From Sphagnum magellanicum (lineage: Eukaryota; Streptophyta; Sphagnopsida; Sphagnales; Sphagnaceae): 64,000 nucleotides of DNA. The notes beneath the pieces are model-generated. The model ran no database searches. It had not been told where the DNA came from and saw only the letters and a list, made by a program, of their open reading frames with translations. Every line of letters begins with the position of its first letter. Position 1 is the stretch's first letter. Positions 13,811 to 60,685 of the stretch are shown in pieces. A program made the translations under genes and the position numbers. The DNA lies in contig CM038917.1 in assembly GCA_021904315.1 (NCBI GenBank), forward strand, positions 13,314,041-13,378,040, given 5' to 3'.

Positions 13811-13811
13811 G

Positions 13812-14250
13812 GATCAATTTTGTGACGTAGCCAAAATGGCGATGACCTACGGATATTTAAGCCAAATTTGGCTACTAGTTAAATAATATGAAAGCAAAAT
13901 TTGTTAAATATCCCCCTTTTTTTTGGGCTACCTACTTTGAAGAACCAATGTATGTGGTGCAGTGGCAACCTGGAAAAGTTTCTTAAATTTTTATCAAAAT
14001 ATGGCTATCGAGAATCTCCAAAAAACACTTCATTTAAGAACTTTTTTTTAAAAATTTTTTTAGCTTTCTGGCTATCTATAAGTTTGAGGCTGCCTACTTG
14101 AACCATGTATAGGAATCTGGCTGTTTTTCCTAAATTTTAGTCAAAATGTGGCTATTGAGATTTTATTTTTATAGATGCACTTGAATTAGCACTTTTAATT
14201 TTTAATATAGCTTCTGGCTATTGTATAGCCAGTCAAAAGAAAAGGCTGGT
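13812..14250 (+). repeat. Promoter-proximal CArG repeat, copy A1
   Basis: This copy starts with TCAATTTTGTGACGTAGCC, continues through AATGGCGATGACC and a TATTTAAGCCAAATTTGGCT block, and ends near TATAGCCAGTCAAAAGAAAAGGCTGG. CCAAATTTGG at 13862-13871 is a perfect CC(A/T)6GG (CArG) box inside a 14-bp palindrome. A shorter direct copy follows at 14278-14434, and related copies lie before the two other genes (42718-43490 and 59590-59852). No transposase or clear terminal inverted repeat was identified, so its class is unknown. Confidence 0.75.
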
Positions 14251-14277
14251 ACCTAGCTAATCATTTATTTTTTTCCT

Positions 14278-14434
14278 GTCAATTTTGTGATGTAGCCAGA
14301 ATGGCGATCATGTACAGGAATATTTAGCCAAATTTGGTTGCAATCTAAATATGGAAGTATTCTGGCAATTGAGAATTTCAAAAAAGCACTTGTCAAGATT
14401 ATATATATATATATATCCAGCGAAAAAAAGACTG
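14278..14434 (+). repeat. Promoter-proximal CArG repeat, copy A2
   Basis: This is a shorter direct copy of the 13812-14250 repeat. It begins AATTTTGTGATGTAGCCAGA and carries GGCGATCATG and CCAAATTTGG (14328-14337). It ends with a TATATA run and CCAGCGAAAAAAAGACTG, matching the end of the copy at 59590-59852 (TATATAGCCAGCAAAAAAAA). Its gene-proximal end is therefore also the best TATA-like tract before gene 1. Confidence 0.75.
14398..14416 (+). promoter_or_regulatory. Candidate TATA tract of gene 1
   Basis: An uninterrupted TATATA run lies 640 bp before the start codon at 15057 and marks the change from AT-rich repeat to GC-richer leader-like sequence. If it is used, the 5' UTR would be about 0.6 kb. 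The GGAGGAGGCGAG-rich stretch near 14750 would then lie in the leader. There is no direct evidence for a transcription start. Confidence 0.4.
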
Positions 14435-15056
14435 TAACCTAATCAGCGGATCAAACGAGGTCGTCGTCGTCTCCTGTCTCATCATGCTCTCCATTCCCTG
14501 CAAATTCGACACACGACACTGCTGCCTGTGCGTGCGTGTGTAAGGAAGAAAAGGAAATGCGAGTCCCAAGACGATGATGGTTAAGTTATAGCTTTGTAAC
14601 AACAAGGGAAGTTGTCGACCTTGCGTCCTTTGAAGCACTGAGCATTTGGCATTTTTTTGGGATTTAAAAATATTTTTTTGGGTTTGTTTGTTTGTTTGTT
14701 TGTTTGTCCGTTTTTTTTTTTTCCCGGACTCTTAAAGCCGCTCAGTCAGTGAGGAGGAGGCGAGAAAACACGAACATCGCGAATCATGACTGCACTGGAA
14801 TGAATGCAGTGGTCGTCTACATGCGGATGTTTGTCAGGTTTACAGATTGATTGAAGTCTTTCAGACGCGGAGGAAGCATTATTACTTATGTATTGCGAGT
14901 ACATAGTGGTGTTTATATCGTGGATGACTGGAAGCATTTTGCCTATTGCGACTGGTGAGGAGCACATGTTGTTGAATTCAGTGTTTTAGGGTATTGAGCA
15001 TCGGGTAGGAATTTGACGTGCAAGAACAAGAGGGCGGAGAAGAACCAAGCGGTTGA

Positions 15057-18000
15057 ATGTTTGGGGCAGTCAGTTCTCAGAGAATGAGGGGGCGGAATGC
15101 AGATGGAGTGGCCGCCGCGCAGAAGAGGCGAGTGCTGCTCATTGCGTGTAGCATGGTTCTAATGTTGTCGTTGTTGTCCATTTACCATGGTTCTTTCTTC
15201 AGATATCATCGGCTTCACAACAAGAATAAACTGATTAGGGAGGAGCGTTTCTCGGATGATAATAATGCCGCCGCCGGCCGCGGCTCTTCTTCTTCTTCTT
15301 CTGATTGGTCTGTTTCTTCTTCCAAAGCTTTGGAAGTCACGGCTGTGGAGGAGGAACAGGAGGAGGAGGAGAACGATCATCCTCTCACTGCAAAGCTCCG
15401 CGACAATACGGGGAAGCTCCTCGATGCTCGTGTCACAGCAGAGGAGGAGGAGGCGGCGGCTACAACCGGTAATAACGAGCAGACTGACGAGAAATACGAG
15501 CAGTCAGATGGCCAAGATGACTCAGAAGACAAGAATGACAGCAACGACAGTGACGAAAATGATAAAGAAATTGAAGATACAAGAGATGAGAGATCTTCTG
15601 TTGAGGAATCCGAATCATCAGCAGATGATAGCAGCAGCAGCGACGACGAGGGAACCGATGATCTTCCGCTCAAATCCATCCCAGTATGCTCAGATACAAT
15701 ACTTTCATTCTCAATAGAAATAAATAAATAATCTCAGACTTGTGATGATGATGATGATTGTGGTTTGTTGAAGGCAAATATTCATTGCTTGGTAAGAGCA
15801 GAATCAAAACAAGATATGAAATCTGAACAATGTTTATGCAGGGATAGTTAGTTGTTTTGAGAGTTTTAGGTTTGGGGGTTTTGCAGGTTTGTGATTCGCA
15901 GTATACAGATTTGATCCCCTGTCTGGACAGACGACTTCAAACGCAAATGAAGATCAAGCTCAATACATCTCTCATGGAACACTATGAGCGCCATTGCCCA
16001 CCTCCAGAGCGCCGTCTTAACTGCTTGATTCCTCCCCCTCCTAATTACAAGGTATAATATCACTCATCACCCACTGTCTCTTTCTTGCTTGTACACAGCA
16101 GTCACAATGCTTGCAGAGCATTCTAAGCCATCCTAAGCACTCTTTTGCTCTGGAATCATCATTCACACCAGTTAGTATAGAGTTGACCTGGAACTGGAGG
16201 CTTGTCGAGTCTCCACTGATTCTAGGAAGTTTTGATATCCCAGGTGGCTGGGTAATCACCACTGATAAACAAAATCATGTCCCGTCTTTTGCATAAATAT
16301 GGTCTCATGCTAGTTATTAGAGACAGGGAATATGGGTCTGTTGTTTGGTCTTTGCATGATAACGAGATAGCACAGTGGGAGCACCTGTGCACAGGTGCCA
16401 ATCAGGTGGCCAGCAAGCAGGGACGAAGTATGGCAAGCCAATGTTCCTCATACATTTCTTGCAACTGAGAAATCCGATCAACACTGGATGGTGGTGAACA
16501 ACCAGAAGGTCAACTTTCCAGGTGGTGGCACCCACTTTCCTGATGGTGCTGACAAGTACATTGTACATCTTGGGAAGGTAACTTGTGCACTCAAACTATT
16601 TGAAGCACCTGCACTTGCTGTTGAATTTCCATGTGTTTTTAAACTTGGAAGTTTCTGAGGCTTGACTGTGGGCTTTCTGTGAGGTATGTGCTCTTGCATA
16701 AGTTTGAGATTATGTTTGTGATATGGGGTCTTGTTACGTAAGTTGGACCTGTAGCTATGTGTGCTACCTAACCATAAGTGGTATAGGGTAAATCACCAAA
16801 GATTCAGTGGGAAAATCTGGAGTCCACTTCCTCATCTCCTTGGTAATCTAAAGAACAGTCTTCTGTTTTAATGAGAAATTTCCTTTTAAGAGAACAGTTG
16901 CACAACTCTTCTCTTCCCTGAGGAGGGGCTGGTTTATTGATCACTTCCATCACAGATGGTGGAGATGAAAAGGTCAATCAGAATTGTGCAGATGGAGTTT
17001 AGCAAGCAGTTAAAGCAGACTAATTTATTTTGAAGACATAAGTACTTGATGATCATATTCTGGTAAAAGCAGGTTTTGGATTGTTCCCTCTTTGCTTGGA
17101 ATTTGTCCAGGAAGTTCTGTGATAGAACTTGTAATGTTCCTGTCTAGAGTTCTTCAGATTCTAAATCTGGAGAAGATGATGAATGTTGTTTTGTTCATGA
17201 CAGTGAGAACGTTGCTTTGCCTACAGATGCTCAAGAACAAGGATGGGAATCTCAGCAGTGGAGGTAAAATAAGGACTGTCTTGGATGTGGGGTGTGGGGT
17301 GGCAAGCTTTGGTGCCTACTTACTTGACTTGGACATTTTAGCAATGTCTTTGGCCCCCAATGATGTACACCAGAACCAGATACAGTTCGCATTGGAGAGA
17401 GGGATTCCTGCAACCCTAGGTGTATTTGGCACAATGCGACTTCCTTATCCAAGCAAATCTTTTGATTTGGCCCACTGTTCTCGGTGTCGAATTGACTGGG
17501 CACAACGGGGTGGTATTCTGCTTCTGGAGGTTGATAGGCTTTTAAGGCCTGGTGGGTACTTTGCCTGGTCATCTCCTCCTGTGTATCGGGATGATCCAGA
17601 AGATGCAAACACATGGAAAGAAATGGTGGACCTGGTTGGCCGCATGTGCTGGACAATTGCTGCCAAAGATGGACAGACTGTGATTTGGGCCAAGCCACTA
17701 ACAAATGAGTGCTATGAAAAGCGAGAAGTAGGTACAGAGCCACTAGTGTGCAGTGACAGTGTAGATATTGATGCAGCCTGGCAAGAACCTATGAAGACTT
17801 GCATCACTCCACTCATTGGATGTGAGCCTCTACAACTCACACCAGTTAGCCCTGTGACTCTGCAGTTTTCTCTTTGCATGCCTTTCCAAGCCTTCTTTTG
17901 GACACATTTTCTGAAAAAAATTCACCTGAAGTTCTATTTGCTATTCATCATTCTAGCATTCAGATTATCCAACAGGTATTGTAATTTTGGTGGCTGTGTT

Positions 18001-19124
18001 GAAGCAGTTGGAAGGGGTTTGGAGCCATGGCCAAAGCGCATGTCTACCCCTCCTCCACGCCTGAAAGATCTTGGTCTCAATGAAAAAGCTTTTGCTGACA
18101 ACTCGGTAAGCTCTTTGCTTCAAATTTTCCTGAAAACTAGACCAGATCACTTAGTTACCATCACTAGTTGGTGGTAGATTTGTTCATGTAGTCACTTTTT
18201 GTATTTGCATCTTTGGAAATAGTTCCAGGTTGGCAGTCTGTTTGCCATGTATTTAGACTTTGGGGCAGTGTGAACTGAATTGCAAGCAAGCTGAGCATTC
18301 TGAGGGGTTTTGCACATCTATATGCAGAATGCATGGAAGAGAAGGGTGGAGTTTTACTGGAAGCAGCTGAAAACTGCAAAGCAGGTGGAGCAAAATAGTA
18401 TCCGCAACATAATGGACATGAATGCCAATTTGGGTGGTTTTGCTGCAGCATTGAGAGCAATGAACATGCCAGTGTGGGTGATGAATGTGGTTCCATACTC
18501 AAGCCCCAACAGTCTCAAAGTTGTCTACGATCGTGGGTTTATTGGTTCCTACCATAATTGGTAAATTCATCTGTCACTTCTTATACATCTGTCACTTGAT
18601 GCACAGTAAGTGGGGTGTTTGCTCTTGGATAAGTTATTCATTTGCAATTGAAATGCATAAAATTGGGGATTTGTTTTGGAACTAGCTAGAAATTGTTAAC
18701 TCAATGAATGCATCAAGAGATCCACCTGCTGATATTAGCTGTTAAACATTCTCTTGGAATATGCATCAATATTATTGTTATGGCGTTTCTTATCTGGATG
18801 GTCTTGTGCAGGTGTGAAGCATACTCCACATACCCACGGACATATGATCTGCTACATGCCTGGGGTGTACTCTCAGATATCTATGATCATGACTGCAGCG
18901 TGGAGGATCTTCTGCTAGAGATGGACCGCCTTCTGCGACCATATGGTCTTGTTATTATGCGTGACAGAGGTTATCTAATTGATCGAGTTAGCAAGCAGCT
19001 TGATGCGCTACACTGGAATGCTTGGTCTACAGTGTTGGATGCTCAAAAGGATGAGATTTCAGATGCAGATGAAAAGATTTTACTTGCTCGCAAGCAGCTG
19101 TGGCAACCTGAGGATATCTTGTGA
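15057..19124 (+). CDS. Golgi PMT-type (DUF248) methyltransferase
   Basis: This is a probable SAM-dependent methyltransferase of the plant PMT/QUA2-like family (DUF248), closest by eye to the Arabidopsis PMT1/PMT3/PMT8 group. These are type II Golgi membrane proteins thought to methylate cell-wall polysaccharides. Coding exons are 15057-15683, 15887-16051, 16395-16577, 17227-17821, 18008-18105, 18328-18560 and 18812-19124. They total 2214 nt in frame, or 737 aa. One membrane helix lies at about residues 26-44. Residues 70-208 are an acidic, Ser-rich stalk, so the protein is longer than the roughly 600 aa I know for these relatives. The lumenal part shows EHYERHCPPPERR, FPGGGTHF, the SAM motif LDVGCG (about 344), LAPNDVHQNQIQFALERG, LRPGGYF, and late NIMDMNA, WVMNVVP and TYPRTYDLLHAW. 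A second ATG at residue 10 (15084) starts MRGR, the start I recall for the relatives. The 18008 acceptor is the least certain junction; an acceptor three bases earlier, at 18005, also keeps frame. Confidence 0.93.
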
Positions 19125-22100
19125 TCCTGGGATGTGTTACATCAGAGCCTGTTTGATTAGTAGAAATAGGCCATTAGATGATATGATTGAGTTTGTGATT
19201 TTATTATTTTGCATTAATTGCAACCTGAGGTCAATATAGAGGACCACAAATATGGGAAAAGAGGGTAAGCACTAGATTTTTTGTAGGTAGGGAATACAAG
19301 TTGCTTCTTTCATGTGCAACATCAAAGTAAGGCTCATGATGCATTGAAAGGAAGGTTCTAACTCTGCTATGCTGAGGGAATGGCGTTGGAAGGACTGGAG
19401 GGTATTTGTTAGCTACTGGTCTGGTCAGTAAGGTAACTGGATATGAGACAAAATCACACATTACTCCTTCTCAGCTTATGTAGTCCCATAACTTCTATGT
19501 ACTTTGTGACCTGGTAGTTTGGCAGTCCAAGGAATAGCCACTAACTTCTGATTTGTTTGAAAGGCAGGACTTGTGAATGAAGGGGAAATCAAGCTGCTGG
19601 AAGTTGATTTGAGCCCCCTTCCAATTCACAAACCCACTGAATGGGGGAGTTCAAATGACAGTAGAAATTAGATGTGATGCAAGTCAACTCACACGGACTT
19701 GATTTCATTTCTTTGTAAGTTATCTGCCTTGTGAGCTCGTTTGAGTTGGTCTGTTATGCAGCAGCCACAATCTTTCTTGTCTTGCTTGAATTTGATGCTG
19801 CCTGCAGCAATAATGCTGCTCCTTTCATGAGACCTTTCATGTGGTGAAATGTCTGATGTTGAAACATTGCAAATTGTATGGCAAAACCGGTCTGGGCTGA
19901 TTTTGGGATTCAGGCCGTTTCTGAGTCCAATATTAACTATATGGTCAAATCCTGCATGGTCAGCATCTTGTTGAAACTGGAACTTGAACCATCTTGTTTC
20001 ATACTTTGCTGCAACCAGCTGTGTCACTAGACAATTTCCAAATCCTTAGGCATTACTGTAGTAGCTTTTCAGCTTTCAGCACTGGGGTGTTGAACCATTA
20101 TTTTATTTTTCAAAATCACTTTGGCAGTAAGAAATAGTTCATGGAACTTTGGCAGTAAATATAAGCAGTTTTTTTGGTAGGTTTTCCAGACTTTTGACCT
20201 CTTGAGAATGAGACCTTTTACAACTTTTTTTACTACTTTTTTCACAAAGATAAGAGGAGAGATAATGTTCCACCAAATTTTGTATAAATTGCCCTACCTT
20301 TATGTTCCTATGTGTGCATGGGCTTGTTGGTCTGTCATTCAATTCTTCTCTCAATCAATTCTGACTTAAGGTTACTGACTTTCTTCACATCTAGTTTAAC
20401 AATGGAATTAGTTGTTTTCACTTGACAAACCTACATTTTGAACTCTTGATTTTTTGCTTTCTTGATCAAAGCTTTCTTGTCAAGATCTGTCTCGAACTCT
20501 TCTTTTACTCCAATTTAAAGACCCTCATCTTCAACTCTACCCACATAACCCCATGCAAGACATCACATTAACAATCTTGAAACCTTAATCACTATGAAGA
20601 AGGAGAAAGCCCAATGTGATGCAATAGAGAATTTAGGTGCCATAGAAAATAAGTGCAATTCCAAAAAGATTGGGTTCCAGGCTAATAATTTCCTCAAATT
20701 TTGGCATTTAAAACAAGTAAATTCTAGAGGGTTTGACATTTTCAACAATAATTAATTCCCATCAAACCTACAATGAGGTTATGACATCAATTTTTTTGAA
20801 AACTATATAATAGGTACTATGTACATATTATGAATCGGTTGTACAAATCATATTGTCTTTGCAATAATCATCTCAGGTATCTAATCACTTCAACAGTGAA
20901 AAAATAATGTGACACCTTTAAGCTTGTCAAATGGTTAAATGGTATATGTGGTAAAGAATCTTGTCAATTTTTAAGAAAAGTCATCATTTTCCTACTAACT
21001 TTTCACAAATGTTACATCAAAATGTCACTTTTCCTTGTGATTCCCAAATGAAAGCTTCAAAATTGACAAGTTATAAGTCTAATCACTTTGGGGATTTATA
21101 ACTTTTTCAATTTGCATTTGATTCAAAATTACTAGGCCAAATTTGTAGCCTTTGAAAAAAGCTTTCCAACAATGTATATGCTTTTGAATGAAAGTCAATT
21201 TGAGCCATTTGTCGAGCAACTAAGTGATTGATATTCATATTCATTTTGGCAATTTGATTTTTGACCTTTCAAATGGCCATAATTTATGGTTATGGTTTTT
21301 GTTTTGTGAATGCAACCCCATTTAGTATTATGCTTTTCAAAGCCTTTCCAATATTGTAAAGAAAGCCCTAGGTTTGAAACCTTCATTCAAATATTTAAAA
21401 CATTTTTAAATTCCCAAAATGAAAATCCCCTTGGAATTGTTAAGACTTGTTTTCTTGCATTTTCCCACATTTATGGGAAAGTACTTGAATTAAAAAATGT
21501 TTAGGTTTTATTTTTAATTCATTTCCTTTATTATGCCTTAGCTTTGATCATGAGCATAAAGATAGGGTCAAAACCATTGTTGGAGTACACAAATCCAAAT
21601 GTTAGAACTAGATGTAAAATTTAACCTAATCGGATCCAAATATTGAAAATTCTTAATATTTCCCTTATTTCTGAACCACAATTAGGGTAGAACTAGGGTA
21701 AAACTTGGAACCTTTTACCCACCTATTTTTGGTGGAAAGAACTCTCAAAAACCTGCTGAGGTTTCAATGTTTTAAATAGGTTTAAGGTTTCTCCCATTGT
21801 TTTCTTCTTAAAATTTTCATGACAATTTTTTATTTTGTGATAGTGGGGTAACTTTTTGTTTGGTTTGCATTCCTATTTTCTTAGATTTTTTTGCAATTTC
21901 TAGTGGTGTACTGCAACTTTTTGCTTTGCATTTGTGGCTTTTGGTTGTTTACGGTAGTTCTTTCTTTTGCAAAGGTGTGACAACATTGTTTTTTGCTTAG
22001 TGTTTTTTATGACTCTGGTTTATTATAACTATTTCATTTGCAACAATGTGACAACTTTTTATTTTTCATTTGCAATTTCTAATAATTTGTAACAACTATT

Positions 22101-23730: not shown

Positions 23731-23744
23731 TCCCCGAGGGGAAT

Positions 23745-23905
23745 AACAATACAAAAAAAGAGTAAAAAATACATGAGTAAAAATATAAGGTGCAATATAT
23801 TGGTTGTTGGGTAAAAATTATAAGTTAATTAGTTAAAATAAGGTACATATCATTCAAATAGTTAATTTAATTATAATATAAGGTATGTAATAATATGAAA
23901 TAGTG
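23745..23905 (+). repeat. LTR-start fragment (family 2), plus orientation
   Basis: After a CCCCGAGGGG stretch the sequence carries a block with AAGGTGCAATATATTGG and TTATAAGTTAATTAG. The same block, at about three-quarters identity by eye, occurs inverted at 40195-40344 beside a poly-G tract and a copia RT relic. I read both as the 5' ends of LTRs of one retrotransposon family. No coding region of that element is recognisable beside this copy. Confidence 0.5.
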
Positions 23906-24599: not shown

Positions 24600-26142
24600 A
24601 TTCACTAATTTTGTGAATAATGTCCCAAAAACTTTGTTAGTAGACTCAACTTATTTGTTTCCTTGAAGATAATAGACAATAAAATTAGTATGTCATAAGA
24701 TGAAATGATCGATCAAATAATAAATAACATCATTGATGAAATGGGTACCTTGATTAATCACTTGTGGTGAGTGGACAACCAAATTATGTGAAAATGTGTT
24801 CATACAAGAATTTCATAATAATAGTAGTTACGTTTGTATGTAAAACTTTCACCTCTACCCATTTAGTTGCATAATTAATAGCAACCAAAATATATCAATT
24901 TTCATAATATCGATTTGTTAGTGTGACGAATGCGAACATTAGACACCATCTTCCAATATATGGAATTCATCCATAATGTTCATCCATAACTCCTCACTAA
25001 ATCTTGGTTAAATGTTAATTAAGTTTTAATTAACTCTCAATTAAATCCCAATTAAGTTTTAGTTAAATCCTTATTAAACCTTTGTGAAATGATAGTTAAA
25101 TCCTAATTAAATCCCAATTAAATCCTAATTAAATCATAGTTAAATTTTAATTAAATTTTAATTAAGTCTTAGTCCAATTAAATCTTAGTTAACTTGTAAT
25201 TAAGTTTTAGTTAATTTATGAATAGTTGATTTCTAATTAAGAAGGTTCCCAAAAAACTTATTTACTTGATGCACACATAGAAGCCTCCCTGGAAGCTTCC
25301 TTGAGTTAAGTCCCCAAAGGGGTAAAATAGGAATAGGAACCTTCATTTCCTTTAATCTATTCAACATTAGGCACAATTTTGCACCATAGCCTTGTCAAGT
25401 TCTTTTCATGTTCATGTTTACATACAATAGTATAATAAAGATATATTTTCATGTTTACCATGCACATCTTATGTTCTTGCTTTTAGATCTTATGTTCTTG
25501 TTTTTTAATCACATTATTTTATTTTATTCTTTGTTTGAAAGTTAAAATTAAACCTTTTTTTTAGCCTTTGTTCTTGTGGTTCTTTGTGTCCTTGATAGTT
25601 GGTTTTGATAGGCCCAATAAAGTTTAATCCCCATTTTTGAAAAATTTCTTTGAGCAAAGTGTAATCAACTTAGCCAAATTTTGTGTCAATAGGTTACATG
25701 TTCTTTGACACTAATCATAGGCTTCACAAATATTCATGAACATCACAATTCATTGTTGGCCATTAGTATCCAACATCAAGAATTTTCATCACAGTAATAT
25801 CTAAAGAAAAATGTATTTTAACAACTCCAATATGTAGCTTTTGCAAAATAATTAGTACTTATTCTGGTTGTAAAACACAATAGAATTTATTATCTTGCCT
25901 GAATTGGTAGAATACTCCATCTTCAAATACAAATGGTTTAACTTTTTGAATTAGAGATTGTCTTTGGGAAGTACTATATCTCTCAAGCATCACTCCCTTA
26001 TATAGGTACTCAAAACCATTATGTAACCATTCAGGTTGTAATGTGAACAAGTGAGCATGAATGTTTTGATTAGGTACACTAACCAGTTCAAAATGGTTAA
26101 GTAGCCTATTCAATGCATCTACCATTAAATGGGATCTACTAG
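24600..26142 (-). pseudogene. Gypsy integrase, split by a solo LTR
   Basis: The minus strand carries SRSHLMVDALNRL (end of the RNase H linker), then an integrase zinc-binding region with HFSLDITVMKILDVGYWWPT near 25740-25830. The start of the catalytic core, WGLNFIGPI, follows near 25610-25640. The core breaks off at the solo LTR and resumes at 24916 with [29 protein letters not shown] and STNKVLG-like blocks down to about 24.6 kb. The first catalytic Asp (WGLD in relatives) is Asn here, and stops are frequent. Confidence 0.82.
24922..25597 (+). mobile_element. Solo LTR (family 1) inside gypsy integrase
   Basis: This element begins TGTGACGAATGCG and ends GTCCTTGATA. It shares with 7707-8452 the TTAATTAAGT-type repeats and the blocks GATGCACACATAGAA, TCCCCAAAGG, CACCATAGCCTTGTCA and CCTTTGTTCTTGTG, all in the same order. 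It is flanked by GTTAG (24917-24921) and GTTGG (25598-25602), a target duplication with one mismatch. Removing it reconnects the two parts of the integrase core, which confirms both edges. It has no internal retroelement sequence and is in plus orientation, opposite to its host element. It is more diverged at its ends than the copy at 7707-8452. Confidence 0.85.
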
Positions 26143-26296
26143 CATTACAACAAAATGTGTCCATGTATGCCAAGTGATTTCTTTTGATTTTGAATGAATT
26201 CACTGATTATAATGAATGGGACCTAGTGAGGAAGTAATGAATTCATTGGTTTAGTGAACAAAAACTAATGAATTGCACCCACATTTTGTTGTAGTG
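26143..26296 (-). mobile_element. CACTA-like MITE (copy 1) in gypsy element
   Basis: 154 bp bounded by CATTACAACAAAATGTG on the left and CATTTTGTTGTAGTG on the right, an inverted terminal repeat of about 13-15 bp of the CACTACAACAAAA type. It aligns along its whole length, inverted, with 38072-38226. Internally it has repeated GAATTCAC/CTAGTGA motifs. The flanking 3 bp (TAG and CAA) do not match, so the target duplication has decayed or the edge is shifted. It separates the RNase H and integrase parts of the gypsy Pol. It is non-autonomous. Confidence 0.8.
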
Positions 26297-26660: not shown

Positions 26661-26679
26661 TATCTTCCCAAGCATTTTG

Positions 26680-32380: not shown

Positions 32381-32399
32381 CCTTCACCTCCCTTCACCT

Positions 32400-41985: not shown

Positions 41986-42717
41986 GCCTCATCTAACATA
42001 AAACCATGACTTAAATTTAAATCATGAAATAAATTATGTTGTAATGACAATATAAAATGAAATGTATTTTTCAAAATATGAAATGTGAAAAAATATGCTT
42101 CAAGGAACAAGGGTTTTTTTTTTCAATTTTTTTGAGGTAGGTGGGTGGGCTAGTAATCATCCACAAGAGGACTTAAACTAACTATAGGTTAAAGAAAACA
42201 TTAAAAAATCATGTTTTAAATTTGAATAATGAAGTAGATTATGTTGTAACGAACAATATAAAATGAAGAAATGTGCCTCCACATTTCAAAGATGAAGGAA
42301 TTATTTCCACCCAATTTTCTAAGGTAGGTGGCTTAGCAATCATCAACAAGAGGACTTAACCAAATGTGGTTAAAGGTGAGAAAGGATGTTAAGAAAAATT
42401 AGGGTTCTTACTATGTATTAATGACATGTTGGAATTTGTTGTTTAAATATGGCAATTTCATATTTTTCCTGTCAAAATATGGTGACTTTGTGCCATTATT
42501 TCCAAAATAATCCTTTGTGGGATTCACAATTATTATTTTGTGGGGACTCCAAGTGGTGAAATGTTGTGAAGAAAACATTATCATCAAAGATAATATATTT
42601 GATAACTAAAAAAATTAAGCAAAAAATTTACTAGAGTATGTTGGTGTGTGATTATGTTGGTTTTACATTCATAGGTCGAATGAAAAAATGATTCTTAATG
42701 TTTTTGAATTTTCATAT

Positions 42718-43490
42718 GTGGTGTATAGCCAAAATTGGGTAAATATTTTTATGAATGATCACCAATTTGGATACAATACAATTTTCTAAAAACAAAAACC
42801 GCTAGCTCTAATCAATGTTTTTTTTGGGGTTGTGAAGTTTTGATTTTTTTGGTAACCTGAGAAATATGAGTTCAACACAGTCAAAGAATTTTTGTGAAAA
42901 AAATGGCCCTAATGCACCCTATGAAACAAAATTGGAAAAAAAAAAACACTGCAGGCCAATTAAATATTTTTTTGGGGGATGAATTTTCGACCTGAAAAAT
43001 ATGGTTTCAACACGTATAAAGGATATTTGTGAGAAGGGTCATAATTTGCCAGATTTCGAGAATTTTTTTTGCCATAATTATAGTCTAAATATATAAAATG
43101 ATGCTTAAAATGTTTTACTTCCATATTTGGTATACAGCCAAATTTGGTTAAATTTTCTTGGTTATGATCGATAGCCAAAAAGAAAATTAAAGCAATTGGC
43201 GGAAAAAAAACACTGCTACCAAGAAACGAAATCGAAACAACAGCGCTTTTTTTTAAGGGCGAAACTTTTTTAAGAAAATGATTTTGGAGGTTTTCAGTCG
43301 CCAAAAGTGGGAAAAAAATAAAAATAAAATTAGCCAGATTCATATGCTTGGTTTTCATTGTGTAGCCAAATTTTTTTATTGAAAGGTTATTAAAAGAGTT
43401 TTTTTTTTTTTTGTTTTCCTGGTTAATAGCCAGATTTGGCTAAATCTTCCTATGGATGATCACCACTTTGGCTACAAATTAAAATTCCTA
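42718..43490 (-). repeat. Promoter-proximal CArG repeat, copies B1-B3
   Basis: Three copies of the CArG repeat core, inverted relative to the copies at 13812-14434, lie near 42723-42800, 43128-43200 and 43420-43490. Each reads AGCCAAATTTGGTTAAAT-like, then TATGGATGATCACC, then TTTGGCTAC. CC(A/T)6GG boxes are CCAAAATTGG (42729-42738) and CCAAATTTGG (43138-43147). The third copy has CCAGATTTGG (43430-43439), which breaks the consensus. The stretches between copies also share AAAACACTGC and CCGC motifs. The array ends 20 bp before the TA run of gene 2. Confidence 0.72.
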
Positions 43491-43510
43491 AAAATACCGC
43501 CGATGCGAGG

Positions 43511-43730: not shown

Positions 43731-46711
43731 ATGGATGAAGGAGATGGCGGCTGGGAAGAACTCCGGAAGGAGGCACGCAAGGTCGAAGGAGATCTGGATG
43801 TCAAGCTGTCGTCTTACAACAAGCTTGGAGGCATGCTTGCCCATGGAGGTGCAAACCCTAATCGCATTTTTTGTTTCTTTTTTTGGCCCCCTTCTGTTGC
43901 TCCCCGTTTTCTCACCACTTCATGCATTTGCCTGCATATCTAGGCGATCTTTTTGGGCTCCTGAATCAGGGCTACCGCCCATTGGGGTTGCATGCGAGAT
44001 TGTTAGTCGTGACGAGAGAGGGCCAGTAGACAAACCAGTCATCTGTAGCAAGGGACTTCCTTTTATTCTTGGAAGAAGATTGTTCAACCTGTAGATAAGT
44101 AGTAAATGAACTGATTTGCTTCTAACGGGTGAAAAATGCCACATCCTATTGTCTGGGTTAATAGCATTTGGAATCTTTTCTGCATGGTTTACCATCCTGA
44201 AATCAATCAGAGTTTTGGGGTTGCATCATTTGCACGATATCTCTTGCTTGTTGCAGTCTTAGAACAATGCAAATCTGAGTATGTGGGAGGGCTTTCTGCT
44301 TTGATGCTGATAATATTGGAGGGGTTTGCTGTCATGGTGATTTTAGGGTTTGTGGATGTGGGATCAGGAGCAGAAGGGGTGGGAGGGGATGGGTCATGGA
44401 AATCGATGGAGATGGAGATTGAGTCCTTGCTGGAGAAGCTATTGGACATCAATGATGCAATGAGCCGGTGTGTGGCAGCTGCCATTTCAACTACCTCTGT
44501 CACTCAGAAACTGGCTCGCCATCGAGACATTCTTCATGAATTCACCCAGGTCTTTTGTCCCAGCTTTTTTCTTGCCAGACCTCTTGACTGTTTTACTCAA
44601 TATGGATGGATGGATGGATGGATTGAGGAAGCACCTGCATTGCTCTGTTGCTTGTTTCCACAATACCTTCGACCCGATTGTATTTTGGCAGTTGTAGCTT
44701 TTCCATTCTTATGAGCTTGAAATTCTGACACTTGTTTTGGATTTGGCACTCTTATCCAGCATCCTGAGTTTACCACTTGGGGGTTTGAAGAAGGGGTTGA
44801 TAGAATTAAGAAAAATTTCTTACTTGTGATGGATTTTGAGTCATGAATACAGGAGTTCCGACGTACAAAGAACAACATCAGCTTGATGCGTGAGCATGCA
44901 GAGCTTTTGACTTCTGTTCGCAATGATATTAGTGAGTATAAGGTATGTTTTTCTTTCCTTGTTGTTTGTAGCTAGCATAATCACACTTAAAAACCAGGTT
45001 TCCTGCAATCCTGAATGATGTTTTCCTTTATATTCCCCTGATTCATTGAGCTATCCAGTATTAGGCCTAAGGCTTTCATGACTAAGAATAGAGACTCAGT
45101 ATGTCGGTTAATGTCTGAGATTGACATATGATCACTGCTTGGACCTGAAATGGGAACGTTCCAGTACCTAGTCACTACCACACATGTTGCTGTTGCTGGT
45201 CAGTGAACCTGCAAGAGACTTTTGCTATGGTTCATACTGCTCTTTTCTAATTCTGTTTTCTATTTGTGCTATTTTTGTATGGGTTTTCCTTTTTCACTCC
45301 TATGGCTTGCTGTGATGAGTGTGTTAGACTAGAGATTTTCCAAACCTTATTATCAGGTCATTTCATGATTTCTGTTAAGTGGGACTTCACTTCTGATTAT
45401 TGAGGAGTTCTCAAATGTCATGACAATATTCCTGTGATCCAAATTGCTGGAGGGGGTTGAAGTGAAAAAGGATATCCCAGCATTAAGTTTCAAATTCCCA
45501 GATATTGAAACTGCACAGGCTGACAAGCTCTGCATCTCAGTCTTGATAGTGTATGTACCTGCATGCAAGTTTGGTACAGAAGTTTCTTGCATTGAGACTT
45601 TCCACTGTTCTCTCCAATCACCCACCTCACAATTATTGCACATTTTAATTAGGTTAAGATCCATGGAAACCTTCCTGCTAGCAACAAATCTTCTGGGCCC
45701 ATTTCTATCTTCTTTGCTATTGCTCAATTGGTTGACCTGGTGTCATTGATTTAATGGTTTTCCTGGGTGCAATTTGCTTGAATGAATATAGTTTATTTAT
45801 GCATTAGACATGCGGATTGTGCCAAATCAAGTTAAGATTACAATTTCATTTTGATCCTTGGATCCTTGCATTGAAGGAACAGTCAGTTAAGTGTTGTGCA
45901 ATTGGATTTCTTTCTGTTTTGTGCTACAAAGCAGGCTGTTTTCTCCTTTTGCCTCCCATACATGTCCTATGCCCAAGACTGTTCTAGATGACTAGCTGGT
46001 ATACTAGTTTGAGACTTTGAGCATTTGATGAAGTTTACTTCAAGGGCCTCACTGTACTTGATGTGTGGTGGAAGCAGGCATCTGGAAGTTTGTCCCCTGG
46101 TCCTAGCCTGCTGAGGGAGCGGGGTGCAATTCATGGTAATATTTTGCAGGTAAGTCTCACCTCAGTATGCCAAGGTCTTCATGGTAGCTTTTTGTAGCCC
46201 CTGAGTGCATGAGGTGTTTTTTGTTATATGTAAATTACCTAATGAATTATGCATACAGCATGTAAGGTTTTGTGATTTCTTCATGCATTGTAGGCTTCTG
46301 GAAGTAATTTTTCAAGTGTGGGGGAAGGCAGGTGGATGAGGTCATAAATCAAGCCCAGGCTACGAAAGGGGCACTTGCAGCCCAGCGCTCAGCTTTCATG
46401 GAAATTCAGGGCAAGCTAAAGCAACTAGCCGATCGGTTTCCTGTTGTTCGTGGTTTGCTAGGTAAGCTTTTTGGAAAAAAATTGGCACATGCTCTTTCTC
46501 TGTTGCAACCCTACAAAAATCTGGTTCATGGGAAGTTGATCTACATCAGTAAGCAATTTTGCTAATGGGACAATCTAAAGCTCTTGGTGTGAGTTCTGCT
46601 GGGGTATTTGCAGGGGCGATCAAGCGGAAAAGATCAAAGGACACATTGATTCTAGCAGGGGTGATTACAGCCTGCTCTCTTTTCCTCATCATTTACTGGA
46701 TTTCAAAATAA
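43731..46711 (+). CDS. GOS12: Golgi Qb-SNARE, GOS12 type
   Basis: Golgi SNARE of the GOS1/GOS28 family, which mediates vesicle fusion within the Golgi and between ER and Golgi. Coding exons are 43731-43848, 44347-44549, 44853-44942, 46078-46149, 46332-46461 and 46614-46711. All have GT-AG junctions, total 711 nt and give 236 aa, against about 238 for Arabidopsis GOS12. The N-terminal block is WEELRKEARKVEGDLDVKLS. It is followed by SWKSMEMEIESLLEKLLDIN, TTSVTQKLARHRDILHEFTQ, the SNARE helix with DEVINQAQATKGALAAQRSA (layer glutamine about residue 179), RFPVVRGLLG, and a C-terminal anchor helix ending FLIIYWISK. There is no signal peptide, as expected for a tail-anchored SNARE. The start was chosen at the first ATG in frame, which gives the family-length N-terminus. 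A TTG at 43695 opens the frame further but has no support. Conservation is high throughout, so the gene looks functional. Confidence 0.94.
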
Positions 46712-50643: not shown

Positions 50644-50724
50644 TCTTATATATTAAAGTTACATGTCTGTCTGTCAGTCTGTCCGGGCAGTTTCCGGGCA
50701 CTGCCCGAACCTTTGTTTTTTGTT

Positions 50725-50758
<34 letters not shown>

Positions 50759-51117
50759 TGTTTTCTGTGTCAGTTAAACTGCCCGGACCTCTTTTTTTTT
50801 TTTTTTTTGGGTTTTGTTTTCTGTGTCAGTTAAAATGCCCAGACCTTTGTTTTTTTTTTTTTTTTGGGTTTTGTTTTATGTGTCAGTTAAACTGCCCGGA
50901 CCTTTTTTTTTTTTTTTTTGGGTTTTGTTTTCTGTGTCAGTTAAATTGCCCGGACCTTTTTTTTTTTTGGGGGGGGTTTTGTTTTCTGTGTCAGTTAAAC
51001 TGCCCGGACCTTTTTTTTTTTTTTTTTTTTGATGAATTTTGTTTTCTGTGTCAGTTAAACTGCCCGGACCTTTTTTTTTTTGCTCGACGGGTGCATTATG
51101 CACCGGGTTCACACTAG
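50644..51117 (+). mobile_element. Non-autonomous Helitron with expanded array (copy 2)
   Basis: 474 bp starting TCTTATATATTAAAGTTAC (after A) and ending GGTGCATTATGCACC, 9 nt, CTAG (before T). These are the same ends as the minus-strand copy at 1601-1853. A GTCTGTCTGTC run and CGGGCAGT...ACTGCCCG inverted repeat follow the 5' end. The interior is six copies of a 53-60-bp unit: GTTTTCTGTGTCAGTTAAAC, TGCCCGGACC and an oligo-T run. Copies differ mainly in T-run length and single bases. A poly-G run of about 38 bases sits at 50717-50756. The long plus-strand frame across it (50584-51117) is the translation of this array and not a gene. Confidence 0.88.
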
Positions 51118-52420
51118 TAAATATAAAAACATCATGTCCAATATAAAAATTGAATTTAAAAAAAAAAAGGGTTCAAACAAAATATTTATGACAAAGTGAA
51201 AAAACGATGACAAAAATATTCCAACCTTGTGGTCAAACTTGGAACTCAAGATATGAATTACATGAAAAATGGACAATATAAGTCTATTCCCTTTTTCAAA
51301 AAATGCAATTTTGTGCAATTTGTGGAATTGTGAAACTCAATAATAAAAAAAATTACAAAAAAAGATATAACAAATACAATAACACATCAAACAAACAAAA
51401 TGGTTGCACACCATAAACAATGGCAAATGTCATGATAGCACACAAGTTGCAATAATGGAGATTTCATGTACCTTTGTAACAAGTGCCGTTCAAACAAAAA
51501 AAAACCTTGGAATGCAACTTATGTAGTGTATCAAGCACCACCATACATGGCCACATTGCTCTTTACACACCCACTCCATGTGCAATTATTATCTTTCTTT
51601 GAGATTGGATTACATATGCAATCACAAAATTGGGGCTTTGCCACAAGTCAAATAATAGAAACTTATTGAATAGTTGTTTATTAAGTTAGGATGGCATCTT
51701 GGATCACAATTTTAATGCAGAAGAAACCTACTTTACTAGCACCACTACTATCACAAAATATGAAATTAAATCTTTGGTTTCAAACATACAAAACCATTTT
51801 TGAACAATCACATTAAAAAAGTAGCACGTGCATTCTCACACTAGATGCAATACAGCATATAATTGAAGAACAACCCACACAAAACATAGGGTTCCCAAAC
51901 ATGGACATTCCAATTAATATACAACCTAACCTTTTTATTTGACATGTGAGTTGATACTACATCTAATTTTAGAAAGAAAGCTTATTACATAATTGGACAT
52001 GTAGAATAACATGAAACAAATAAGGAAAAACAACAATATGGAACAATATTTGTAAAAGAAACCACATTAAATATTTAAATACAAGCCCTTTCACTTGAAA
52101 TGACATTATTTCCTTTTTTATTCCCATGCACAAACATGGAGCTCATGATGTTATTATATCTTTCAATGAATACTTAAAATACAAGATGATTACATTATTT
52201 TCACCTTTTACATTATACAAACCATACCTATTTTTCATGTATGATCTATGTCAAACATTATAATTCATTAAAGAAACCTCAAAAACATGTTTTGAAAAAG
52301 ACATGAAAACATGTAAAATACAAAACCCAAAAGTGATTGAACAAGATATCATTAAACATGTTATTAAATATAATCTTCTTGCAAACATAGAAGGCATTCT
52401 TCAATGGCACAAAACATAAC
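51118..52420. other. AT-rich DNA, no gene seen
   Basis: This stretch is AT-rich with short chance frames (for example 51466-51669) and no family resemblance found. Confidence 0.4.
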
Positions 52421-52429
52421 TACAAGACC

Positions 52430-53150
52430 TTTTATGCATGGTCAAACAATTTGGCATGTCACATTATTTTGTAATATCGATAATTGACAAAATGAGTTCA
52501 TTATGTTGGGAACAAATTATTGATATTGAAAAAATTGTAAAATATTATGTAAAATATTTACATGCATCATTAAATTGGAAAGATTGCCTAATAAAATGTG
52601 TCATACAATTTCATGAGTCGACAAATTCATGCAACAACTTTTATTATCAGCACACCTGCATTTACTTGGCATTATAAAGGCATATGTAATATGTTATGAA
52701 ATTCAACAACATGGTTTACTTCATGCACACATCATTCTTTGGGTTGTAGAAATGACATTGAAAATATCACAAATAAAATTGTTGCATTTATTCTTACAAC
52801 ATTTGATGAAAAAAAAGATTTATACAACACATATAAAATACAAACACACTTTACAAAATTGCAATGAAAAAAATTTCATACATGTGGAAATAAATGTAAT
52901 TTAAATAAATTTAAAAAATCAATGCAAATATGGGTTCCCACTCAATGTGCAATTGAATCAATAATCTAAATATAACAATTACACCAATTGTTGGGAATAT
53001 TATCGCTTGAGATATGAAAATGACAATGTTGTGCCATACCATGCATCATTGTTTTTTTATGGAGTTCCCATCTCAACATTCAACGCACTACTTCTTCATA
53101 TTGGTCTTATTATTTCTTTAAATATACCATGAAATGTGAACCATATGGAC
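52430..53150 (+). pseudogene. Helitron Rep (HUH) domain relic
   Basis: The frame at 52629-52904 reads IIKAYVICYEIQQHGLLHAHIILWV. It matches the Rep replication-initiator motif of Helitron transposases (GKVxAYxYxxEFQKRGLPHAHIL), including the two histidines of the HUH metal site in LHAHI. The frame just before (52438-52677) fits the preceding conserved region in length. A block near 53015-53075 reads NDNVVPYHASLFF, resembling the NxWVVPYNPxLL motif that follows in the same domain. Stops and frameshifts interrupt it, and no helicase domain was recognised. It is not part of the short Helitron that ends at 51117. Confidence 0.7.
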
Positions 53151-56030
53151 CATTAAATTTAAACCAAAAGATTGTAAAATGTTTAGGCCTACAAAATGTT
53201 TCACAAGTGTAACTTCAATTCATACCCTCCCTTATAATCAACAAACATGATTCTTGTAGAAGTCGTACTCACATGTTTACAAATACCATTGGTTCAAAAA
53301 AATACAATGATAGAATACATTGATTCAAAACTTCCTCACATGCGTACAAAAATCATCACAAAATCAAGAGTTTTAGGGTTCCATCCCTTAGATGTCTACA
53401 ATAATTGACTTACTTATTTTGACAACATGAATTTTATTCAATATTTAACAAAACTTGAATATGAGAAATCATAACATCCCACTTTAAAATGTCATGGTCA
53501 AGATGACCTAGGAAACTTTATTTGCAAGAGTAACAAACTAACAAGATTTACAAATTTCCATCCCATACACAACATAGAAGGATTTTATTATAACATATTA
53601 TTACAAAATGTGTTTTTCAAAATGAAAATGAATTGTTGTCCACAACAAAATTTGAAAAAAATTATGTATGTGAACTTGTTACTATCACATCTATCATTAA
53701 TGATTTAAAACATTGTTATAGCTATAGAAGTTCAACTAATCAATAACACATTACAATTTCCATTGCTACACATTACAATTCACTTCCTACCACAATTCCC
53801 ATGAGTTTTAAATTCCAAACATTCCATCTTCCATTTTTATAAACTTATTCAATTTTATGACATTAACATTGAGTTTTTGGGTTGTAGGTACTACAAAACA
53901 CTTCTATGATAATTACACATTGAAACAAAAATAATCGATCTTAGATAGTTTCAGTTTTGTTAATGTCATGTTATAAACAAATATATTAAGCAAGTGGCAC
54001 ATTTCTTATATGTGATGCCCATTTTTTACTTTTCTTAAAATTTTGTTTAGGTCTTTTGCAACCTTCAAATTAATGAAAGGTTAATTTCAACCCATATCAC
54101 ATTTTCACTAACACATTTTTAAAACGTTTTTCAAAAGAAAGAAAGTCTCCTATTTATTTGATTTACAAACCTAAAGGCTCAAAAATGAAATTTATTATTT
54201 GCTCTTTTTTCCAATTTGGAGATAATTGTTCCTCATGCCAAACAACAAAATTAATAATATGGATTTTTGATTTCAAATAAACTTTACTTGTTTTTACTTT
54301 CCATCAAAATTAATGTTTTAATTAGATCTTCACATAGAATAAAAAATTACATTGTATTTTAGCAACATGTTGCAACATGTTGTTTTAAGCTATTATCTAA
54401 ATTTGGCCAAATTTCAAAAAAAAATTCCTCAAAATTAAGTGTTTTTTTGACCTTTTTTTCAAAAAGAACCTTTGTATGAATCACATTAGTTTTTTTTTTG
54501 TCACAGTGATGTAAAATTTCACCAAAAGAGAAAACGCATTGCTTTGGTTGTAGCACATTTTGATATTAAAGTCCCTTTGTAACAAAAAAAGGAACTAATG
54601 AAAACTTCCTTATAAATATGATCACAACATTGTAGTCCAACAATTGAATTCAAATGACTTGATTAGCACAATGATGTGCATCAAAATAATCTCTAGATCC
54701 TAATAAGAAAACCTAATCCTTCATCTTAGTGCATGTTCATGACTAGCTAGACTTGAATTTCATGATTTTTTTGCAAATGAATTAAGCTTTTCTAAGCATC
54801 ATTACACCCTTTTTTATCAACCATGACTACTTGCCACATACTTCTTACAAGGATAAACCCAACAATATTGTTTTCTAAAGGTATGGCCAAATATCAGTTC
54901 TTTCAATGTGCACTTAGTCTCTAGAGCTATGTATATCATCTCCTAACATGTAATGTTTTTATTTGAACTCATGCTTTGATGCATTCTAAAGCATAATTTT
55001 CTACAACCCACCATTCAACTATTTCCCAATTTCTTGTGCAGGAGGTAACCACCAGGTTCATGTATGAACCACTACAAGCAATGCAAACACTCTCATGTAG
55101 ACTTAAGGTTGAGATTCAACGTTTTGCAAAACTAGCTCAAGGATACCCCAATGAGTTTCTAGTTGCTTCCTCACTACATAGAATCTAACACACAAATTAG
55201 GTTTTGGACCCTAGGTTCTTTCCTTCACCAATGCATGGTTATTACATTGTTGTACATGCCTATCTGTCTACAATTAAAATCACTTTGAATTGTCATCACA
55301 CTTCAACATCAACCCTTCATAGAAAACTTGTTAAGTACATATATTGCACATTTGTCTCAAAAGTAGGTGGGCACAATGGAAAAGAAATCAACAACTATTC
55401 AAACAAAAAAAAAACATTTCTACTAATATTTCACGTTATCACTTAGCTCTATTGTTTATCGAAAGCCTTCCTTCCTCCTCCTTTTATCTTCCATTGCCAC
55501 CATCAACCTTCAAAGTTTCATCAATGTTCGCTTTCATCTCCACCACACAACAATTTTGTTGAAATAAATCTTGCATAATTACTTACAAACAACAAACCTT
55601 CCTACCTCATTTAACAAGCTCTCATGAATTTGTTACAATAATGGCCAATTTGGGGAAATAGACAATGATGGAAAACCTTTCCACTGTTGATGTGCAGAAA
55701 GTTGACAAAAACAACAAAAACTTTAAAAACTCCTAGTGTTCACATTGAAAGTATATATGTCTCCTAACAACACCTCATCTTAGTTCACACCTTTTCTAAT
55801 GAAATCAATACAAATTACAATCAATATCACTTAATAATGTTTGACTGCAAATTAATATGGAAAAACAAATTGCAAATATGATTTTACAAATTCAACTAAA
55901 ACTAAATTATTTCCTTAAATGTTATCCCTTTAGCAAAAAATAGCCATTTTCAAATAGGCCTTCTCCTCCACCAATAGATGGTCCCTAGACCCTTTATGTT
56001 CGGTTTTAAAATCTCAAGTTCACTCCCCTT
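53151..56030. other. AT-rich DNA between two transposase relics
   Basis: No gene is recognised. The left part could hold further decayed Helitron sequence and the right part the N-terminal half of the PIF/Harbinger transposase, but I could not identify motifs in either. Confidence 0.35.
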
Positions 56031-56039
56031 CATTGTTGG

Positions 56040-56300
56040 TCTTTCAAGTTTCAAGGTGATGAGGGTATTCATTGATATCATGGATAATGACCTTATACAA
56101 AAAAAGGGGAACATTTTATCTTAAAATTATTATACAACATGAAACATAAGAAGGGTCACCTAGTTATGGAGAATGCCTTTGGCATACTTAAAAAAACTTT
56201 CGAGAATTGTTAACAAAGTTAGACTTGAATGTATCCTTCATATTAAATGTGATCATTTGCTATTGTCTTTACATAACATGCTTTGGTTTCAAACAAAATC
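56040..56300 (+). pseudogene. PIF/Harbinger transposase (DDE_Tnp_4) relic
   Basis: Around 56056-56105 one frame reads GYSLISWIMTLYKK preceded by GD. It matches the GDxGYPLxxWLMTPY block that carries the second catalytic Asp of PIF/Harbinger transposases. At 56165-56290 the sequence reads MENAFGILKKTFRELLTKL followed by ILNVIICYCL. It matches the VENAFGxLKxRWR block with the catalytic Glu and the CxxLHN end. One frameshift separates the GD and GYSL parts. The spacing between blocks is normal. Terminal repeats were not found. Confidence 0.75.
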
Positions 56301-58530
56301 TTGTATTCAACAATTGAAGATAATTATTGAAAACTATATAATATGCATGTCCATTTGGAAGTGAACATTGATAACAAGTTCAATGTAGATCTTTAAATAA
56401 AAATAGTTCATACATTTTACAACCATGAAAAATCTAGAGCTCCCACATTACAGAATTATGTGTTAATTTGGATGACAAAGAAATGTTATATGATTAGCAA
56501 ATATAATTCAATTTTAACCTTATCTTGCATCAAAATTTTGATTGTCAAAGTCCATTCAACTTTGTTTTTTCGTTTTGTCATGTGTTCCCTTTAGTTGTTG
56601 ACATTTTTAGAATCCCCAAATTGGCAATTCATGAACATTTAGTTATTAGATTCAAATTCATTAAGGTTTCATTTTCTTGGTAGAATTCCCTTTATTAGTT
56701 GTTAGATTCCCCAAGTTGTCAATTGAAACTTTAATTGTTAAATTCAATTCATTTAGAACCTTTTATGCAAACAAGTTAACATTACTCACACTTCCACTGA
56801 TGTTGTCTTTCATAGATACCGTGCACATGATTTTCATTGAACCTAGGATTGTTTTGATCATATTCATGGCCTTGTATTGTAACTTTTTTTCAAAGATGGT
56901 CTTTTGGATTTGACATAACTATTCTTCCATAAGCATGTTTGAGTCACATATCTTGTCAATTGAATCAACAAATATGTAATTCCTTTTTATGTTTTGTCTA
57001 TTGGATGTTTTTATGTGCAAAACAATAGTTACAATTAACACTTATATTATCCAAATTCCAAGATCCACTGTTTGTATTATGAACATAATTTGTTTTTAGT
57101 AAGGTTGGTGTTTGAAGCTTTGACACATGAATGTTGATTGGAATGTTGGTTTGAATGTGCATTTGGTTGTCATTCAAAGGTTCAATTAAAGGTTTAATCA
57201 TAGCCTTGGTGAACAACCTTGGATGAACAAGAGATGGTATTTGAGGTGTTTGACCACATGATTAATTCCTAGAGGACATACAAAAGCATAAAGGTTAATG
57301 TTTTCTTTATTGAACTCAATTACACCAATGGGTTCTTTTATTTTTAACTCACATTTTGTTCGAAATTTCATGAATGTTGTAAACACTTATATTCAATCCC
57401 AATGGCTTATTTCTTGTGAAGTCTAGTAACATGTCATGGATGTTCCTATGAAAAAAATGCACCAAATGGAATGCATCAAACTTGTTTCATGGCCTCAATA
57501 TTGAGTATTCTTTGTTGTGGTTAGTTTTGGACATATAATAATTTTGTTCTTGAAATCTCTTTAGATTGACCCTTATTTGTTTTTGTGTGTAAGGCCATTT
57601 CCAATGTGTTGAGAGAATCTTGCAACCATGTGACAATCATGGAAATCTTTTCCATTTTGTTCTAGAATAGTCTCAAACATGTTTCACATGTCAATTTATC
57701 CAATGCTATTACGTGTTCATCTTGTTTTGCTTCTATGAATGCAAGAATTTTCTTGTGCTTCTAATTTAACTATCTTGATTTTCTTGTTTGAACTTCAATT
57801 GACACATTTGAATTGATGGTGGTAACTTTGTTTTTTCCTTTGTTTTTTTTCTTTGATGGGCTAATTATACCCCTAATTATAAACTAGTGGTATTTAGTGG
57901 ATATGGGACATAATGTGATTCATATTAATTAGTTCATGGGCACATGTTCACAACTTTGTTTTTTGGAAGGGGCCACATCAATTGACCCATCATTAGTTGT
58001 TTTTGGAACATTGGGCATCTCAATAAAAATACTTCTTTGAACAAATTGCAAAATAGAAACAAATGTGTCCCTCATTAATTTACCTTTTTAGTTTATATAC
58101 ATGAAAATTGAACTTTGGGCACACCATATGGGATAAAATTGAAATGCTATTGGGAACATCTTGGGGAAAAACTTGACAACTTAGGGAACTCCATGGGATC
58201 ATGATGAAAAAATGTTGGGAACACATGGGAACAAGGAAAAAAACAAAAAAAAACCTCCCATCACCCCACCCCCAAAACAAAAAAAATTGGGCCCATCATG
58301 AATGCATGTTAAACCTTTTCATTAGTTGCATGAAATTTTTATATCCAAAACTATTGGTCACCATTTTCGGCTTGGGCTAATGGTAGGTGCAGAATTTTGG
58401 GGACATAGTGTTGCATGTTTTTACATTCTTTTGTAAACATGTTGTAACAAAAAAAAATGACAAATGATTTGATGATTTATTTGTAGATTAAAGAAATACG
58501 ATATAATTTAAGAAATGTAATATGATCAAT
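56301..58530. other. AT-rich DNA, no gene seen
   Basis: No recognised coding sequence, although remains of the Harbinger element may extend into the left part. Confidence 0.35.
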
Positions 58531-58536
58531 GTTGGA

Positions 58537-59040
58537 TGGTTACAATATGAACAATTTGATATAATCTAGGAACAAAATGCAAGATGGTTACAATTTGAGA
58601 AATGCAAACTAATTTTTGACAATTCTCAATTTCATTATTTATGTTATAATTGTAAAAAAAATGGAGATTGTGGTTTGAAATGTGAAAAAGTTAGTGTTAA
58701 TAGGAAATTGAAAAGGATTTGGTGCTCTATTTTTTTTTTTTTAGATGGTAGATGGTTATAATTTGAATAAGGTAAGTTGGTTTTTGGGAGTTTGAATTTT
58801 AATCATTTGTGTTATTACAATTGTCAAAACTTTGAAAATGTTAATTTCAATTGCAAACAAGTTAGTGTTAACAAGAATTTGAAACATGACTTGATGTTGT
58901 GTTTTGTCTATTAGATGGAAAATGGTTGTCATTTGAGCAATGCAAACTAGTTTTTGAGAATGAAAGTGTGTGATTACAATTGTTAAAGTTGAAGATGGTG
59001 TTTTCAAACATTTGTGTAGAACTACATCCATTTGCCTAGA
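58537..59040. repeat. Tandem repeat, period about 169 bp, three copies
   Basis: The phrase GATGGTTACAATTTGA-GCAA recurs at 58583, 58751 and about 58921. It is followed each time by GTTTTTGAG, then ATTACAATTGT, then a GTTAGTGTTAA and TTGATGTTGTGTTTT-like stretch. Spacing is 168-170 bp, and a partial copy precedes at 58537. Copies are diverged. The length is in the range of satellite monomers, but three copies are not evidence of a satellite array. Confidence 0.65.
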
Positions 59041-59589
59041 GCTTTGAAGGTTTTCTTGTTTTTCAATTTGCTACTTCTGTGATTTATTTCGATAGTTGGT
59101 TTACTTTTGATTTTGTTCAATTGTTGATGTTGTAGCATGACAAATGGAAAGTACTATGCTTGTTTCTTTTGATGTTCCTCTAATACTAATGGTAGGAACA
59201 ATATGGGTGTAGTTGAACATTTTGTGTAGTGATGATGAGGAAGAATGATTTCAAGCTTTCTTTTTACAATAGTGAAGAGGAACTTGTGCAAGCTTCCCAT
59301 GCTTTTTGTGGTGATGATGGGGAGGTGATTAGGAGAAAGTTGTTTTAAGATTTTGTTAACAATGAATTACAAGCTTAACTTTATCCTCATACAAAATATT
59401 GTATTTTAGATTCCAAATCTTCATTTTATGAAGATTCAATTTTAATAAACATTGGGCTTAACATTATTGTCCTATGTGCACACGATAGCAAGGACACCAT
59501 GTTATTACTTTTGTTACATAACATTGGATATGTGAATGGGCTTCTTGTTTTTTTGATCCTTAACATTGAACAAATATCAATGTTTTTGG

Positions 59590-59852
59590 GTCAATTTTGT
59601 GATGTAGCCAAAATTCCAATCATCCATTGGAACATTTAAACAAAATTTGGTTAAAAGCTAAACATGAAAATAAAATTTCAAATACATCTTTCTATACTTT
59701 TGGCTACTTACTTGAAGCCTATATAGATAAATATTTGGAAATATTAAAAAAAATTCAAATTATTGGCTATTGAAATGTAAAAAAAATCATTTCAGCACTT
59801 GTAATTTTTTGTTTCGCTTTTGGCTATATATAGCCAGCAAAAAAAAAGCTGC
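59590..59852 (+). repeat. Promoter-proximal CArG repeat, copy C
   Basis: This copy begins GTCAATTTTGTGATGTAGCC, continues AATTCCAATCATCCATTGGA, and includes ACAAAATTTGGTT, GGCTACTTACTTGAAGCC and ATTGGCTATTGA. It ends GGCTATATATAGCCAGC followed by an A run and GCTG. Order and orientation are those of 13812-14250. Its CArG position reads ACAAAATTTGG, so the consensus is broken here. Confidence 0.75.
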
Positions 59853-60680: not shown

Positions 60681-60685
60681 AACTG

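Follow-up and report, generated by a model that had tools for sequence, protein, structure and literature searches.

A gene-side repeat in Sphagnum magellanicum is very probably a high-copy hAT-type MITE

In the window analysed here (64 kb of the peat moss Sphagnum magellanicum, C11:13314041-13378040), copies of one short repeat lie upstream of each of two genes and a presumed third. Is this repeat a promoter module kept by the host, or is it a mobile element found beside genes for other reasons? The original prediction raised both readings and considered the repeat unlike any class that could be named. A class can now be given. From its target duplication, an empty site and its CAG ends, the family is very probably a non-autonomous hAT-type MITE of about 280 bases.

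Repeat clusters and genes in the window

Two short patterns taken from the repeat occur in the window well above expectation. The pattern TAGCCAAAATGGCGAT, with up to three mismatches, was found five times against 0.56 expected, and 0 of 100 shuffles reached five. The pattern TTTAGCCAAATTTGGCTA was found 13 times against 0.28 expected and no shuffle reached 13, although several places are counted twice among the 13 because the pattern is near-palindromic. Two of these matches, at 42357 and 54394, fall outside the ranges first reported for the repeat. A profile of 279 positions built from 24 genome copies (nhmmer) marked three clusters, at 13803-14432, 42.1-43.5 kb and 59581-59850 (Table 1). 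When the clusters were masked, the remaining 61,679 bases of the window gave no profile match at E<1 (best E 1.4). Both searches agree with the claim that the repeat adjoins all three genes and is absent elsewhere in the window. Equal numbers of copies in the intergenic DNA, which would have told against that claim, were not found in the masked search.

The cores originally noted are real and far above chance, with two corrections: the stretch 13803-14242 forms a single copy whose internal segment is tandemly duplicated (76% and 78% to the consensus), and 14269-14432 is an internally deleted copy (70%). The three inverted copies described at 42718-43490 were recovered as three old minus-strand pieces, the one at 43199..43496 being 65% to the consensus, and are joined by one probable and one doubtful plus-strand piece. 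The copy in the third cluster starts with CAATGTTTT and ends with AAAAGCTG. Tandem repetition of much the same internal segment (profile about 121-260) was observed in several copies, namely window 13803-14242, L006, L022 and L024, the last with five repetitions.

Table 1. Copies of the putative MITE and neighbouring genes in the 64-kb window (profile matches and E values from nhmmer)
Feature	Position	Strand	Profile positions	Profile match	Other evidence
MITE copy 1, internal segment tandemly duplicated	13797..14248	+	5-260, then 121-275	13803-14080, E 2.5e-46; 14083-14242, E 2.3e-26	
Internally deleted MITE copy	14264..14434	+	6-96 joined to 183-277	14269-14359, E 3.6e-26; 14359-14432, E 0.0068	
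Methyltransferase gene, downstream of cluster 1	15057..19124	+			PF03141 in ORFs 17053-18177, 18708-19124
Doubtful MITE piece	42112-42176	+		E 0.19	
Probable MITE fragment	42309..42372	+	14-77	E 6e-4	
MITE fragment	42704..42781	-	22-99	E 3e-11	
MITE fragment	43085..43169	-	43-127	E 2.1e-8	
Old MITE copy	43199..43496	-	28-251	43476-43219, E 5.2e-29	
SNARE gene, downstream of cluster 2	43731..46711	+			PF12352 (V-SNARE_C) in 46308-46562
Near-full-length MITE copy	59576..59852	+		59581-59850, E 5.3e-50	
Presumed third gene, downstream of cluster 3	60000..63744	+			Open frames and CpG peak near 60 kb

For the SNARE gene, both its first exon and a GOS1-like identity are presumed from resemblance. 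Pfam and PDB sequence searches named no family or product for the presumed third gene. In 1-kb steps, the CpG observed/expected ratio (o/e) is 0.54-0.86 at 13-16, 43-44 and 60-61 kb (0.78 at 60-61 kb, beside the presumed third gene) and no higher than 0.36 in the rest of the window. This contrast suggests that CpG may offer a simple if imperfect way of locating gene starts.

Ends, target duplication and class of the element

The element is about 280 bases long and non-coding. Most genome copies start close to CAGTGTTTT, after which comes GTCAATTTTGTGATGTAGCC, and finish close to AAAGGCTG; CAGTG(T)n and (A)nGGCTG are the borders seen most often. The exact 3' end pattern matched at only two places in the genome, probably owing to variation in the A run. 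The ends CAGTGTTTTTTT and CAGCCTTTTTTT have CAG on both sides and the remainder is mostly a T run, which makes a poor terminal inverted repeat; the earlier observation that terminal inverted repeats are not clear was correct. The terminal repeats of hAT elements usually start with CAGNG, unlike the 3' end of the moss element, which reads CAGCC inward. The palindrome GGCTATATATAGCC stands immediately before the 3' end. Folded as RNA, the consensus is predicted to be more stable than its shuffles (z -3.1), as internal palindromes would make it; this is not taken to indicate a function.

Target duplication was tested on 26 near-full copies, with L001, L009, L010 and L017 dropped beforehand. Both borders were recognised in 20 of the 26, and the other six were not used. 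Among these 20 copies, the 8-base flanks were identical at a fraction of 0.450, compared with 0.282 when the pairs were swapped, a level of identity reached in 0 of 5000 permutations. Flanks of 2-7, 9 and 10 bases were at chance in the same copies, and a lesser signal at 11 bases (7 of 5000 permutations) is unexplained. Perfect 8-base duplications flank three of the 20 copies, with 273, 311 and 265 bases between them. Identity at six or more of the eight positions was seen in 5/20 copies and in 7/380 swapped pairs; the remaining 15 copies, including the one at 59.6 kb in the window (4/8), fall below six.

One copy, L005, has an empty counterpart. When its flanks are joined, they align with two nearby C14 paralogs that have no interruption (84% and 83%) and with another paralog that is interrupted by 281 bases. 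One of the uninterrupted paralogs (L103) carries ATATGGAC once, and L005 carries it on either side of the element. For a second copy, L025, a genome search with the joined flanks matched only its own place and no second site. L005 thus demonstrates insertion with an 8-base duplication, and for the family as a whole such insertion is supported.

The 8-base duplication together with the CAG ends points to hAT, and the short, non-coding sequence present in thousands of copies fits a MITE of this type. Could the element belong to another class? CACTA elements make target duplications of 2-3 bases, lengths that were at chance here while the main signal stood at 8. A CACTA-type MITE is therefore very unlikely, even though CAGTG is the reverse complement of CACTG and CACTA is among the two most abundant repeat types of Sphagnum, at 6.8%, in the part of the genome study available (PMC9946827). 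The palindrome just before the 3' end and the weak terminal repeats would also suit a Helitron or a SINE. Helitrons leave no target duplication, in contrast to the 8-base duplication observed, and tRNA and Rfam searches of the 64-kb window found nothing; a Helitron or SINE origin is scarcely credible.

For the hAT-type MITE, a transposase encoded elsewhere would recognise the element ends and move the element by cut and paste. A search of the genome for the hAT domain PF05699 gave 146 places, 30 of which were read with 1.5 kb on either side. No autonomous partner sharing the ends of the element was recognised among these 30. One of them holds an internal fragment of the element, and only stretches of 11-16 bases, mostly one-base runs, resemble the element ends.

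Copy number and position relative to genes

How common is the element, and does it favour genes? The genome searched comprises 438,994,042 bases. With the 14264..14434 copy as query, at least 41 matches were obtained among the best 40 of 644 first-look candidates. The 25-base 5' core has 135 exact matches and 3371 at up to three mismatches (1677 and 1694 on the two strands), and the reversed core has none in either search. Copies were listed on each of the contigs C1-C19. The reversed sequences of the 363 kb then analysed gave no profile match at E<=0.1. Fetched copies longer than 220 bases are 65-91% to the consensus (median 85%, n=37). At 63-78%, against that median, the window pieces look older than the best-scoring fetched sample, as judged from sequence.

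Copies are often clustered, with more than one profile match in 14 of 30 loci. L028 has neighbouring copies in opposite orientation, and the perfect duplication flanking one of them overlaps with the terminal CAG of the other; this suggests self-insertion at a terminus, with the relative age of the two copies inferred. Empty sites and stacked copies may serve as a marker of insertion history. Four very similar copies with partly common flanks (L002, L009, L010 and L017, at C7:19.49-19.66 Mb) are probably part of a larger duplicated segment.

A preference for CpG-rich DNA was examined with islands defined as 400 bases with o/e of at least 0.8, and L009, L010 and L017 were dropped before the test. 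Islands were found at 15 of 27 element loci and at 3 of 20 random stretches (Fisher P 0.006), a result that may be biased since the element loci are the best-scoring, well-preserved copies. Counts at other thresholds, for element loci and random stretches, were 18 and 8 (0.6), 15 and 4 (0.7), 12 and 2 (0.9), and 10 and 1 (1.0). Such islands are not specific to genes, as CpG o/e is close to 1 at hAT coding loci too. Among 16 open frames tested beside copies, four had cellular-gene domains (zf-LSD1, ankyrin, Mon2_C and LRRNT_2); four open frames from random stretches included one PPR and one RVT_1.

A gene-anchored count was made in the LHC family, located by PF00504. It covered 10 loci, each spanning about 3.5 kb, together with 12 additional upstream stretches of 1.2 kb, taken from the 13 next-listed matches with one left out for an internal stop. 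The 10 loci hold three profile matches, one upstream and two downstream, and the further stretches hold two, one of them weak. Upstream, matches thus occur in 3 of 22 stretches, as pieces of 58-115 bases (including L096, E 0.0019); downstream, they occur in 2 of 10, as longer pieces of about 185-223 bases. The density around LHC genes, 5 matches in 49.4 kb, is close to that of random DNA, with 5 in 60 kb (all in 2 of the 20 stretches), and in this one family it is not above random. The arrangement in the window, with a cluster beside three of three genes, is thus not general. A preference for CpG islands or gene sides is possible. Of the proposal of a short element with a strong promoter preference, the mobile element is upheld by the 8-base duplication and the empty site; the strong preference is not, as the LHC density is near random and matches lie on both sides of genes.

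What of a promoter module, a shared regulatory element kept by the host upstream of genes? All three window clusters lie upstream of genes with none elsewhere in the window, and CpG islands are commoner at element loci than in random DNA. However, cluster 2 is mainly opposite in orientation to clusters 1 and 3, the core is dispersed in 3371 copies, and the copies in the window are old, with most of them broken. The duplications and the empty site show insertion. In the one gene family surveyed, most genes had no copy upstream, and the few upstream pieces were shorter than those downstream. The promoter-module proposal is accordingly not supported and quite improbable. With thousands of copies, proximity to genes is ordinary and gives no evidence of a shared promoter switch. 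Judged from sequence, nothing here shows that the window copies drive the adjacent genes.

For the hAT-type MITE, open, CpG-rich DNA, gene starts included, may favour insertion or survival, as may the termini of the element's own copies. A fuller version is quite unlikely: the element would prefer unmethylated, CpG-rich promoter DNA and its own termini as insertion sites, and copies stacked in this way at some moss gene starts would alter expression through palindromic binding sites or hairpin RNA.

Known elements and other repeats

The moss family is in line with the portions available of reports on grass and Drosophila elements (PMC3579700; PMC3517528). Mar, a hAT-superfamily MITE of Drosophila, is 610 bases long and has the target consensus nnnTAnnn (PMC3517528). 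As described there, Mar resembles the moss element in being short, AT-rich and non-coding, in what appear to be imperfect short terminal repeats starting with CAG, in its 8-base target duplications and in having some copies in or near genes. The moss element differs in its plant host, its length of about 280 bases, its thousands of copies and its weaker terminal repeats, and its three perfect duplications do not fit nnnTAnnn. In grasses, the accessible text reports non-coding class 2 elements enriched in or beside genes, most highly in the promoter region, for all studied superfamilies except CACTA (PMC3579700). That result is genome-wide and set against annotation, whereas the moss data consist of a CpG proxy and 22 LHC matches with mixed results. 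In the literature searched, no paper title on a Sphagnum MITE was found, nor was this hAT-type MITE family found described; the word "mite" has no occurrence in the portion available of a Sphagnum study (PMC9946827). A high-copy repeat of peat moss now has a probable name, and its striking gene-side pattern can be explained as ordinary MITE behaviour.

Other repeats were also observed. Near-identical copia (RVT_2) copies, among the best 150 of 2392 candidates, are mostly concentrated on about fifteen contigs, each with a single tight cluster; some copies lie elsewhere. The clusters are probably the RLC5 clusters which, in the portion available of the Sphagnum study, are proposed as centromeres (PMC9946827). 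In the window, a repeat pair at 7748-8450 and 24979-25595 is spaced by about 17.15 kb, and each member opens with an array of 11-base units. A further array, at 50735-51091, is built of units some 54-60 bases long that contain long T runs; related copies lie inverted near the start of the window, at 1576-1826.
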